A stretch of DNA of 64,000 nt from Arcobacter suis CECT 7833 (GTDB lineage: Bacteria; Campylobacterota; Campylobacteria; Campylobacterales; Arcobacteraceae), in NCBI RefSeq assembly GCF_003544815.1, contig NZ_CP032100.1, positions 2,046,001 to 2,110,000 of the forward strand. The letters are read 5' to 3'. A program made the translations under genes and the position numbers. The notes beneath the pieces are model-generated. The model saw only the letters and a list, made by a program, of their open reading frames with translations, had not been told where the DNA came from and did not search any database. Of this stretch, positions 23,883 through 34,394 are shown piece by piece. Positions within the stretch are counted from its first letter, which is position 1. Each line of letters starts with the position of its first letter.

Positions 23883-24752
23883 TTAAATATTCTCTATAAC
23901 ATTGTTTATTTTTACCAAATTATTTTGAATAGTAAATTCTGAGGCTAATTCTTTATTCTGATTTTTAATCATTTCTAAGTCACTCTCATTTGATAAAATA
24001 GCATCTATTTTAAAGGCTGTACTTGGATCAGTTGGAGAATCCATAGAAGCAAAAACATCTACAATTTCTTTTGCATCATTTTCTAAACTTAAAAAAACCA
24101 CACACTTACAATACATTGCTTTTATAATATTTGTTGAAAATGATTTGTTGTAAGTTGGTAATAAAAATATATCCGAAGCTAAAAACAAATCATCTATCTT
24201 TGAATAATTTCCTAATAAAATTATTTTATCTTGTAATTTAGAATATTTAGGAAGTTGAAAATTTAAATTAGCTATTTGTTTTTGTTCCCCTGCAATTATA
24301 ATTTTAAAATCTAAATAAGTTATAGAAGAGCATATATCTAGAAATTCTTTTACACCTGATGATTTAAAGTTTTTTGCTGTAAAAAAAATAAGTTTAGTAT
24401 TTAAATCTATTTGTAATTCTTGACAAAGTTTTATTTTAATCTCTTTTATATTTTTATATTCAACATTTATACTTGGATAAATTACTTTGATTTTTTCATG
24501 GGAAATTTTAGTTTTTGCTATGATTTCATTCATTGAAGCAAATGAATTTGTTACTGTGATTTTTGAATTTTTGATATTTTCAATAGCTTTTTCATCTAAG
24601 TTACCTGAATGAAAATATATATCAGGAAAATGATTTTTTGAAAATAATAAAGAAAGGAAACCTTTCTCTTTTAAAACTTGAATATTTGCTTGTTGTTTTA
24701 ATTTTTCTATTAATAAATTTGTTGTTTTATATGAGATTGTTGTTTTGTTCAT
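23883..24752 (-). CDS. glycosyltransferase, GT4-like
   Basis: 289 residues. The C-terminal GT-B half is clear: [13 protein letters not shown] (about 92-105), [21 protein letters not shown] (rGKG-like loop), then [38 protein letters not shown], where the usual ExxxxxxxE motif is weak. The N-terminal domain is short, so acceptor binding may be unusual or the gene trimmed. It borders the heptose cluster and probably adds a core sugar of lipooligosaccharide. Divergent from gmhB. Confidence 0.8.
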
Positions 24753-24841
24753 AAACTACTTTCTATTGAATATTATATTTCTTATTATAGTTAAAAGTGC
24801 TTTATGTTAATATTTAATAAATTGTTATAAAAAGGATTTTT

Positions 24842-25366
24842 ATTCAAACTGTAAAAAAGAAGATAATTTTTCTAGATAGAGATGGTGTAATAAACCATGA
24901 TTATGGTTATGTAAGCCAAATTGATAAGTTTCAATTTATTGATGGTGTTTTTGATGCTTGTAAATATTTTATAAATTTAGGTTATGAAATTATTATTATT
25001 ACGAACCAATCAGGAATAGGAAGAGGATATTATTCAAAGGATGATTTTAAAAATTTAACAAATTGGATGATAAAAGAGTTTAATAAAAAAGGTATTGAAA
25101 TATTAAAAGTATATTTTTGTCCCCATTCACCTACTGAAACCTGTGAGTGTAGAAAACCCAAAATTGGTATGATTCAACAATCTTTAAATGACTTTAATAT
25201 TGATTTACAAAATTCTTGGCTTATTGGTGATAAAAAAAGTGATATTGAAACTGCAATAAATGCAAATATTTCAAATAAAATATTAATCTCTCAATATAAA
25301 AAGAATTCTGAATTTTTAAATATTGCGAGTAATTTAATAGATACAATAAACATAATTAAAAATTAA
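24842..25366 (+). CDS. gmhB: D-glycero-beta-D-manno-heptose 1,7-bisphosphate 7-phosphatase, ATT start
   Basis: It removes the 7-phosphate in ADP-heptose synthesis. The 174 residues include FLDRDGVIN (nucleophile Asp of the HAD family), ITNQSGIGRGYY, a zinc site CPHSPTETCECRKP and IGDKKSDIETA. The frame is open from 24821, but there is no ATG, GTG or TTG before the DRDG motif. AAAGG (24831-24835) is followed six bases later by ATT at 24842, which I take as start; the first ATG (25067) would remove half the enzyme. Either a rare ATT start or a start-loss mutation. First gene of the heptose operon; hldD follows 8 bp after. Confidence 0.85.
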   Translation: MQTVKKKIIFLDRDGVINHDYGYVSQIDKFQFIDGVFDACKYFINLGYEIIIITNQSGIGRGYYSKDDFKNLTNWMIKEFNKKGIEILKVYFCPHSPTETCECRKPKIGMIQQSLNDFNIDLQNSWLIGDKKSDIETAINANISNKILISQYKKNSEFLNIASNLIDTINIIKN

Positions 25367-25374
25367 GGCTGATA

Positions 25375-26382
25375 ATGAAATATAATGATATAAATTTTAA
25401 TAAAAAAACTATTTTAATAACAGGAGGAGCTGGATTTATAGGTTCTAATATCGCATTTTATTTTCAAAATAATTATCCTAAATGTAAAATAATTGTCGTT
25501 GATTGTTTTAGAAGTGGTGAAACTTTTTCTAATGGGAATTTAAAAAGCTTTGGTCACTTTAAAAATCTTTTAGGTTTTAAAGGAGTTGTAATTAGTGGTG
25601 ATATAAATGATAAGAAATTATTAAAAGATTTAGAAAAAAACTATAAATTTGATTATATCTTTCATCAAGCTGCTATTTCTGATACAACTGTTAATGAGCA
25701 AGATTTAATGATTAAAACAAATGTAAATGCCTATGAAGATTTATTAAAAATTGCCATAAAACATAAAGCAAATATGGTTTATGCAAGTAGTGCAGCTACA
25801 TATGGAGATAGCAATAAATTTGAAGTAGGTTATGAACAACCAAATAATGCTTATGGCTTTTCAAAAGTTATGATGGATAATATTACATATGAATATCTAA
25901 AAAAAAATTTAGACATATCTATTGTTGGATTAAAATATTTTAATGTTTATGGACCAAAAGAATTTTACAAAAATAAAACTGCTTCTATGATAATTCAATT
26001 TGGACATCAAATTTTAAAAGGACTTACTCCAAAACTTTTTGAAGGTAGTGATAAAATACTTAGAGATTTTATTTATATTGAAGATATTATTCAAGCTAAT
26101 ATATTAGCAACTAATCCAAAAAAATCGGGAGTATATAATGTTGGAACTGGAAAAGCTAGAAGTTTTGAAGATATAGTAAATATTTTACAAAAAGAATTAA
26201 AAATCAATAATGGTAAAGAGTATATTCCAAATCCATATATAGGACAATATCAATTTTTTACACAAGCAAATATAAAAACTTCAGAAGAATTTTTAGGATA
26301 TAACCCACAGTTTGAAATGGAAGATGGAATAAAAGCATATATTCCTGAAATAAAAAGATTATTTAAAGAAGAGATAAAATAA
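25375..26382 (+). CDS. hldD: ADP-L-glycero-D-manno-heptose 6-epimerase
   Basis: The last step of ADP-heptose synthesis, inverting C6. 335 residues of the extended SDR type: GGAGFIGSN (17-25) binds NADP, and the active-site pair is YGFSK (about 160-164). LRDFIYIEDI and VGTGKARSFEDIV are typical. It lies between gmhB and hldE, its TAA touching the hldE ATG without a gap. Confidence 0.95.
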   Translation: MKYNDINFNKKTILITGGAGFIGSNIAFYFQNNYPKCKIIVVDCFRSGETFSNGNLKSFGHFKNLLGFKGVVISGDINDKKLLKDLEKNYKFDYIFHQAAISDTTVNEQDLMIKTNVNAYEDLLKIAIKHKANMVYASSAATYGDSNKFEVGYEQPNNAYGFSKVMMDNITYEYLKKNLDISIVGLKYFNVYGPKEFYKNKTASMIIQFGHQILKGLTPKLFEGSDKILRDFIYIEDIIQANILATNPKKSGVYNVGTGKARSFEDIVNILQKELKINNGKEYIPNPYIGQYQFFTQANIKTSEEFLGYNPQFEMEDGIKAYIPEIKRLFKEEIK

Positions 26383-27819
26383 ATGTATAAGCTAGAAAAT
26401 ACAAATACAAATATTCTTGTAATTGGTGATTTAATGATTGATCATTATTTATGGGGAAAATGTGAAAGAATCTCCCCAGAAGCACCTGTACAAATTGTAA
26501 ATATAGAAAAAGAAAGCTCTGTTTTAGGTGGAGCAGGAAATGTAATAAATAATCTTAGAGCTTTAGGCTCAAAAGTTGATGTAATAAGCGTAATTGGAAA
26601 TGATGAAGTTGCCAATGAATTAAAACTACTTTTAAACAAAATTGGAGTTGAAGATAAAAAATTAATTATAGAAGAAGATAGAAAGACTTCAAAAAAAAGC
26701 CGTTTGATAGCAGCTCAACAACAAGTTATTAGATATGATAAAGAGAGTATTGAAGATATATCTGAGAATAGTTCTAAAAAAATATTAGATATCTTGGAAA
26801 AAAACATCTCAACATATAATGCTATTATTCTATCTGATTATGGAAAAGGTGTGTTAACTAACTCTTTAACAAAAAAAATCATTTCACTTGCAAACAATAA
26901 CAAAATAAAAGTTTTAGTTGATCCAAAAGGAAAAGATTATAGTAAATATAGTGGTGCATATACTCTAACACCAAACAAAAAAGAAGCTATTGAAGCTACA
27001 AATATAGATATAGTAAATAATACAAAATTAGAAGAAGCTTTAAAATATCTAAAAGATACTTGTAATTTAGAAATATCTTTAATTACACTAAGTGAAAATG
27101 GTATTGCAATTTTTGATGATAATTTAAGAATCAAACCAACAGTTGCTAGAGAAGTTTATGATGTAACAGGAGCTGGGGATACTGTAATTGCTTCAATTAC
27201 ATTTGCAATTGCAAATAATTTAAATATCGATGAAGCAATAAATTTTGCCAATCTAGCAGCAGGTGTTGTTGTAGGAAAAATTGGTAGTGCAACTGCAACT
27301 TTGGATGAAATATATGAATATGAATCAAGTTTGCATAAATCAAGTTCAACTTCTCATATAAAAAGTTTTGATGAAATTGAGAAATTATCTAAAAAGTTTC
27401 ATGAAAAAGGGAAAAAAATAATTTTTACAAATGGATGCTTTGATATATTACATGCTGGACATGTCAAATATCTTGAAGTTGCCAAAAGTTATGGAGATAT
27501 TTTAATATTAGGCTTAAATGCTGATAGTTCAGTAAAAAAATTAAAAGGTCCAACAAGACCTATTAATACTCAAAATGATAGAGCTTATATTTTAGCTTCC
27601 CTAGAATCAGTTGATTATGTAGTAATCTTTGATGAGGAAACACCTTATGAATTAATAAAAAAAATTCAGCCACATATATTAGTTAAAGGTGGAGATTATG
27701 AAGGTAAGAAAGTAATAGGTTCTGATATTGCTCAAGAAGTAAGACTTGTTCAATTTTTAGATGGGAAAAGTACAACAAATATAATTCAAAGGATTCAAAA
27801 TAATGAAACAAACAATTAA
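26383..27819 (+). CDS. hldE: bifunctional heptose 7-phosphate kinase / heptose 1-phosphate adenylyltransferase
   Basis: 478 residues with two domains. The first 320 form a ribokinase-type kinase ([10 protein letters not shown] near 46, [10 protein letters not shown] near 260). The remainder is a nucleotidyltransferase with [17 protein letters not shown] (about 347-363), with HAGH as the HxGH active site. It phosphorylates heptose 7-phosphate and later transfers AMP. gmhA overlaps its 3' end by 17 nt. Confidence 0.97.
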
Positions 27820-28369
27820 AAATGAATTATTATCTCATTTAGAAGTAATAAATCTAACTATTGAAACTATGCAAGATAAATTAGAAAGCGCTTCAAAATT
27901 GGTTGTAGATACACTAAAGAGTGGAAATAAAATATTACTTTGTGGAAATGGTGGAAGTGCAGCAGATGCTCAACATATTGCAGCTGAATTAACAGGAAGA
28001 TATAAAACAGAAAGAAGAGGACTTCCAGGAATTGCACTTACAACGGATACAAGTGCTTTAACTGCTATTGGAAATGACTATGGTTATGATAGAATTTTTG
28101 ATAGACAAATTGAAGCTTTAGCAAATAATGGTGATTTAGTAATTGGTATTAGTACAAGTGGAAATAGTAAAAATATAATAAATGCGTTAAAGGTTGCAAG
28201 AAAATTAGGTTGTAAAACTTTAGGATTAACAGGACGAGATGGAGGAATTATGAATGAACTTTGTGATATAAATCTAATAGTTCCTTCAAATAATACTCCG
28301 AGAATTCAAGAAATGCATATTTTATTTGGACATACTATTTGTCAAATCGTAGATAATAAGTTAAGTTAA
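27803..28369 (+). CDS. gmhA: sedoheptulose 7-phosphate isomerase
   Basis: The first step to ADP-heptose, converting sedoheptulose 7-phosphate to heptose 7-phosphate. 188 residues of a SIS-fold protein: [19 protein letters not shown] (about 51-69) and [11 protein letters not shown] carry substrate-binding serines. It works as a tetramer. It ends the heptose operon and converges on the minus-strand acetyltransferase 17 bp away. Confidence 0.97.
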
Positions 28370-32966: not shown

Positions 32967-33361
32967 TATTTTACAACTTCTAAAAATTTATCATAATTAG
33001 TTATATAATCACTTACATCATAATAATCATCAGATAAAACCATAAGTACGCAATCTAAACTAAAATCATGCATACTTCCCCAAATAAGAGCATCTTGAAA
33101 AAGTCCTAGATTTGGTTTATTTAAATCAAACGTCTCTTTTTCTTTTCCATTATCTAATGTAACTTTACAACTACCATTTACAGCTATCAAAAACTGTTTT
33201 GTTTTATAATGAGAATGATTTCCCCTTGGAATTCCGTCTAGTGTTCCATAAATATAAAAAACTCTTTTTACATCAAATGGTATTTGTCTATTTGCTTCAA
33301 GAGCTACAAGCTGACCTCTATGGTCTCCTAATACTTTGAATTCTTCTAATTTTGTTATCAT
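32966..33361 (-). CDS. dTDP-4-oxo-6-deoxyglucose 3,4-ketoisomerase (FdtA/QdtA-like)
   Basis: 131 residues of the cupin type (WxcM-like). It has [22 protein letters not shown] and [22 protein letters not shown], with the His pair of the NHSHYK motif. It converts the RmlB product to the 3-keto sugar, the first committed step to dTDP-Fuc3NAc or Qui3NAc. It overlaps rmlB by 4 nt (ATGA), and its substrate depends on an active rmlB. Confidence 0.9.
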
Positions 33362-34394
33362 CCATTCATTCCATACTTATTCAAATACCACTCAATAGTC
33401 TTCACAATCCCACTATCAAAATTCTCATCAGCTTTCCAACCTAGCTCATTTTCTAATTTTGTTGCATCTATTGCATATCTTCTATCATGTCCTGCTCTAT
33501 CTTCTACAAAGGTGATTAATTCTTTATAAGAAGAATTATCAGCTTTTGGAACTTCTTTATCTAAGATAGTACAAATAGTATTAACTATTTGAAGATTTGT
33601 TCTTTCATTTCGTCCACCAATATTATATGTTTCTCCAGTAATTCCTGCGTGGAACACTATATCTATACCTTTACAATGGTCAAGTACATATAACCAATCT
33701 CTTATATTTTTCCCATCACCATAGATTGGAATATTTTGATTTGATAAAGCTTTTCTTATAATTGTAGGGATTAGTTTTTCATCATGTTGTTTTGGTCCAT
33801 AATTATTTGAGCAGTTTGTAATTACTGTATTCATTCCATAAGTTTCATTATATGCTCTTATTATCATATCACTTGATGCTTTAGAAGCTGAATATGGTGA
33901 GTTTGGTGCGTATGGAGTATTTTCAGTAAATAAATCATTTGGATCAAGACTTAGTGTTCCATAAACTTCATCAGTTGAGATATGATGAAATCTATAGTTT
34001 TATAATTTGATTTATATTCAAATGGTTTATTCATCCAGTATTTATACGCTACATCTATTAAAGTAAAAGTCCCATTTACATTTGTTTGGACAAATACACC
34101 TGGATTTTTAATTGAGTTATCCACATGAGATTCAGCTGCGAAATGAATTACACCAGAAATATCATATTCAGAAAAAATAAATTCTACTAATTCTCTATTA
34201 CAGATATCACCTTTTATAAATTTATATCTTGGATTATTTTCACACTCTGTTAGATTTTCTAAATTTCCTGCATAAGTTAAAAGGTCAAGATTAATTAAAT
34301 TATAATCTGGATATTTATCTAAGAAATAAGGTACAAAGTTTGAACCTATAAATCCGGCTGTTCCTGTTAGTAATATATTCTTATTTTGCTGCAT
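33358..34394 (-). pseudogene. rmlB: dTDP-glucose 4,6-dehydratase, frameshifted
   Basis: It would make dTDP-4-keto-6-deoxyglucose. One frame holds TAGFIGSN, HFAAESHVDNSI and ends in [12 protein letters not shown]...; another frame, open from [13 protein letters not shown], carries the catalytic [14 protein letters not shown] and the C-terminus. The shift is at a run of four T at 33998-34001 (A in the gene). One added base restores a 345-residue protein of normal size. Either an inactivated gene, a slipped homopolymer in the population or a sequencing error. It lies between rmlD (gap 0) and the ketoisomerase (4-nt overlap). Confidence 0.9.

Follow-up and report, generated by a model that had tools for sequence, protein, structure and literature searches.

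The locus lies in a 64,000-nucleotide stretch of DNA, referred to as the window, and consists of the operon gmhB-hldD-hldE-gmhA together with the divergent intergenic region that precedes it (Table 1). The operon is intact and its gene order is the same in nearly all gmhB-bearing genomes of the genus; the upstream neighbours, namely the divergent glycosyltransferase gene and the rpmB-like and TrkA-like genes, are also common to most genomes of the genus. The gmhB product is matched by NF006506 (199.3 bits, cut-off 178) and TIGR00213 (187.7 bits, cut-off 149.6) and stays under the cut-off of the domain model NF050049 (196 against 250). It aligns with the E. coli GmhB structures 3l8e/2gmw at an E value of about 2e-39, and in this alignment the DRDG, TNQSG, C/H/C/C zinc loop, RKP and GDK motifs are all present in it. 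On these profile and motif matches the protein is GmhB, the HBP 7-phosphatase of HAD type IIIA, an enzyme required for making the surface coat of the cell. A search of the genome at E <= 0.001 revealed no second GmhB. The following gene, hldD, possesses a Shine-Dalgarno site of its own in addition to its ATG.

Table 1. Genes and predicted signals at the gmhB locus (positions in the window)
Feature	Position	Strand	Remarks
Divergent glycosyltransferase gene, upstream bound of the gmhB leader	23883..24752	-	PF00534; location shared by most of the genus's genomes
Extended -10-like promoter element GCTTTATGTTAATAT in the divergent intergenic region	24799..24813	+	Putative promoter role
In-frame TAA stop upstream of gmhB	24818..24820	+
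Shine-Dalgarno AAAGGA	24831..24836	+	5 bases before ATT; spacing 5-6 bases in ten of ten species
ATT initiation codon of gmhB (predicted)	24842..24844	+	AT[T/C] invariant in ten species plus G017
gmhB, D-glycero-beta-D-manno-heptose 1,7-bisphosphate 7-phosphatase	24842..25366	+	174 aa counted from ATT
hldD, ADP-glyceromanno-heptose 6-epimerase	25375..26382	+	ATG start; TIGR02197 334 bits, above cut-off
hldE, bifunctional heptose-7-P kinase / heptose-1-P adenylyltransferase	26383..27819	+	ATG start; TIGR02198 and TIGR02199 above cut-off
gmhA, sedoheptulose-7-phosphate isomerase	27803..28369	+	ATG start; TIGR00441 231 bits, above cut-off

At the level of the reading frame, gmhB occupies a stop-to-stop frame (24821-25366, +) whose translation begins with IVIKRIFIQTVKKKIIFLDRDG... 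The original prediction that this frame contains no ATG, GTG or TTG ahead of the catalytic DRDG motif was confirmed, as none is found between the in-frame stop and DRDG and the earliest canonical start is the ATG at 25067, downstream of the catalytic motif. The TAA at 24818-24820 rules out an in-frame start further upstream. The AAAGG that had been placed six bases before ATT is exactly there (AAAGG at 24831-24835, ATT at 24842-24844), and 11 codons precede DRDG if gmhB starts at this ATT. A first canonical start located more than 25 codons in was observed in only four of the 63 non-overlapping long frames of the window, gmhB among them, so that chance in an AT-rich genome does not account for the case; of the remaining three, two adjoin or lie within the rRNA operon and one is a frame-shifted rmlB. 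A gene caller restricted to ATG, GTG and TTG would deliver either a 99-residue frame from 25067 without the catalytic motif or a pseudogene call. As for rmlB (dTDP-glucose 4,6-dehydratase; window 33358-34394, -), a frameshift near 33970-34000 leaves frames of 147 and 213 aa that cover TIGR01181 positions 1-117 and 118-314, and an intact further copy of the gene is found at G000:C1:1995375-1996388.

Upstream of gmhB, the intergenic region contains the sole exact match within the window to TATG[AT]TA[AT]TAT, the putative extended -10 element. Each of the ten species without a canonical start (defined below) has this element ahead of gmhB, as do most species of the genus that start with ATG. The 5' leader of gmhB is predicted to be about 20-28 nt long. 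Since the 16S rRNA encoded in the window ends in ...GGATCACCTCCTTTC, the AAAGGA of the leader is fully complementary to UCCUUU and six pairs are possible. Pairing over six bases is available in ten of ten non-ATG species as against 4 of 14 ATG species, a comparison that is uncorrected for relatedness, and would fit with a compensation for the weak codon. Three other candidate elements in this region were discarded. Folding of the gmhB leader revealed no extra stability relative to shuffled sequences (z = 1.27), and leader structure was rejected as a regulator of the gene on these grounds. An upstream open reading frame beginning at the ATG within the -10 element keeps neither its length nor its phase on inspection, and the motif is present in ATG-start species too. 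Finally, a frameshifted upstream start was rejected because, in the ten species, no frame of the leader beyond the -10 element contains ATG or GTG; out-of-frame TTGs number just two, in two of the ten.

That the missing canonical start of gmhB is no chance feature is settled by the comparison between species. Among the 31 genomes of the genus examined, 27 carry gmhB, while G018 gives just a weak match to another HAD protein. No canonical start was found from the promoter-like element to DRDG in ten of the 27 (G000, G001, G004, G006, G010, G011, G014, G019, G021 and G028), and eight of these ten have none even when the stretch is extended to the in-frame stop. The frame of G001 and G004 continues upstream into the promoter-like element, where it contains a canonical codon whose exclusion depends on the promoter call. 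All ten species display AAGGA-N5/6-AT[T/C], with ATT in nine and ATC in G028, and the codon at the site keeps its spacing to the Shine-Dalgarno site, not to DRDG, which lies 10 or 11 codons away. The presence of AT[T/C] at the same Shine-Dalgarno distance in ten species supports the proposal that gmhB starts with ATT. In G017 an ATG directly precedes the same ATT, and five of the ten species have a near-cognate codon, ATC or ATT, in that preceding position; the exact start could be one codon off in some species. Elsewhere in the genus, where a later clade moved to ATG, eleven species start gmhB with ATG, and three species related to A. caeni read TTG ATT, have a different upstream gene and lack the promoter-like element. 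G003 and G027 (L082, L083) carry ATA at the site, with an in-frame ATG nine bases later and 14 bases from AAGGA, and may start at ATA. Outside the genus, TTG is the start in five relatives (G035, G116, G119, G120 and G123), and a canonical start (ATG or TTG) lies near DRDG in all 49 readable gmhB genes of other genera of the family (from 51 retrieved regions, of which two lack the motif). This natural series of ATT, ATC, ATA, ATG and TTG within one genus would provide a testbed for the loss and regain of start codons and for selection on a throttle by AUU.

The constancy of the site was evaluated on a species tree built from the HldD, HldE, GmhA, GmhB and TrkA-like proteins, which for the ten species has a total length of about 1.95 amino acid substitutions per site. 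The tested site was picked by frame and spacing only, hence AT[T/C] was not forced by the choice. Parsimony assigns 0, 0 and 1 changes to the three positions of the start codon, the sole change being that between ATT and ATC, whereas the preceding codon shows 3, 1 and 4 changes and the flanking columns a mean of 2.5. None of 20 three-column stretches of the flanks is as conserved as the start codon (range 3-14 changes versus 1), and the Shine-Dalgarno site is the only other element as constant. Four changes on the tree account for which species have a canonical start and which do not, and none of 2000 label shuffles gave as few. ATT may have been ancestral to the genus, but some backbone nodes of the tree are weakly supported. 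At the protein level, pN/pS of gmhB is 0.127 (G021-G019) and 0.16 (G006-G001) in close pairs that both lack ATG, and the range for such pairs starting with ATG or TTG is 0.16-0.26; GmhB is under purifying selection. The genomes of the genus without gmhB (G015, G018, G029 and the incomplete G025) are also without hldE, and this joint absence indicates that the pathway tends to stay or go as a unit. G018, G029 and G015, two of which are complete single contigs, appear to have lost the ADP-heptose pathway.

These observations fit with the idea that gmhB is an intact gene that is very probably translated from the AUU at 24842, the codon acting as a fixed translational throttle of low yield. According to this model, the AAAGGA Shine-Dalgarno site in a short and weakly structured leader would place the 30S subunit, and the ordinary initiator tRNA (anticodon CAU) would pair with AUU through a third-position mismatch, so that GmhB would begin with fMet-Gln-Thr. 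The poor codon would then cut GmhB synthesis, as expected from the reduced yield of AUU in published reporters of Listeria (PMC13068326) and Staphylococcus (PMC13009471), and the gmhB-hldD-hldE-gmhA operon would be throttled at its first enzyme. The window holds two initiator tRNA genes of the ordinary type. An unusual initiator tRNA was considered and rejected, both copies showing by eye the CAU anticodon, the C1-A72 mismatch and the GGG/CCC anticodon stem.

Regarding the reason why the codon persists, a neutral history is a serious possibility. An ancestral switch to AUU may have been inherited ever since, a strong Shine-Dalgarno site and a small demand for GmhB leaving weak selection for ATG. 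The four changes on the tree point to such long inheritance, and ATG was regained a single time, in a large clade. However, a neutral codon sits uneasily with the fact that ATT/ATC is the only change within the ten species despite ATG being one base away, and with the preference for switches to AUG in other prokaryotes (PMC5622118). A regulatory function, in which IF3 level or growth state would tune GmhB by analogy with infC autoregulation, is possible but rather doubtful. Precedents exist, since the AUU of E. coli infC is discriminated against by IF3 (PMC9410913) and the AUA start of Staphylococcus ccpN gives medium-sensitive expression (PMC13009471), and the codon has not drifted to ATG, GTG or TTG in ten species, with ATG a single substitution away. 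Nevertheless, the AUU is dispensable, since the later clade moved to ATG; in addition, the AUU of cvfC1 shows no medium effect (PMC13009471) and infC of this genome appears not to use AUU itself. It seems unlikely that the AUU of gmhB has been selected for regulation, tying the supply of ADP-heptose precursors to the stringency of initiation (IF3 level or growth state), a situation that, if true, would link the translation apparatus to lipopolysaccharide core synthesis in Aliarcobacter.

Initiation at the preceding near-cognate codon (ATC, ATT or, in some species, ATG), with ATT as residue 2, is improbable. The ATG of G017, the TTG of the caeni-type clade and the ATC or ATT of five species speak for it, but that codon is TTT in the window and in three other species and ACA in one, none of them start codons, and its spacing from AAGGA is just 2-3 bases. 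Conservation across species refutes a recent strain-level loss of ATG that leaves GmhB absent or barely made and the surface deep-rough, the alternative offered by the original prediction. A lost start is what one would normally suspect first, as just two E. coli genes are known with an AUU start (PMC9410913), and the later clade does have ATG, but a canonical start is missing from this place in nine further species, the closest relatives included, no ATG species is nearer than the non-ATG ones, and the frame is unbroken and subject to purifying selection. The check suggested at that time, in which ATG in close relatives would denote a mutation, was run: ATG is missing from the closest relatives as well, whose protein identity is 80-85%. 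The pN/pS values and the joint retention or loss of gmhB and hldE led to the rejection of a start loss with a deep-rough surface.

Conservation of an AUU start is very rare, and gmhB has retained AUU, or ATC in one species, across a deep part of the genus. A survey of related prokaryote groups reconstructed two switches to AUU in all, one from 61,358 ancestral AUG starts and one from 5,080 ancestral GUG starts (PMC5622118). A literature search whose reach excluded most subscription journals found no report of a non-canonical start in gmhB. With no usable canonical start and an AUU conserved at Shine-Dalgarno distance, gmhB would join the AUU-start genes, and the earlier statement that such starts are known for infC and few others agrees with the published cases of infC, pcnB and Staphylococcus cvfC1. 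The infC gene for IF3, in E. coli and others, resembles gmhB in an evolutionarily kept AUU behind a Shine-Dalgarno site, but it encodes the very factor that discriminates against AUU and is thereby subject to feedback, whereas gmhB encodes a metabolic enzyme. In the present genome, infC (L106 1990-2040, -) shows by eye an apparent start TTG AGT AAA GAC after GGAG, and it was rejected as an AUU gene. The Staphylococcus genes cvfC1 (AUU), ccpN and citZ (both AUA) share with gmhB a conserved non-canonical start and a strong Shine-Dalgarno site, and cvfC1 is likewise the first gene of an operon (PMC13009471). Their starts were mapped by ribosome profiling and reporters and their Shine-Dalgarno pairing is extended (PMC13009471), while the gmhB start is predicted from sequence and its pairing spans six bases. 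According to Binns and Masters 2002, as cited in PMC9410913, E. coli pcnB is not a translation-factor gene and has an AUU start that limits its expression; it differs from gmhB in gene and phylum. In Listeria, infC (ATT), rnhC (ATC) and the ATT/ATA mutants of rsbW demonstrate that ATT or ATC can be fixed in conserved genes with translation below that from ATG (PMC13068326), although these cases concern other genes and variation within one species.
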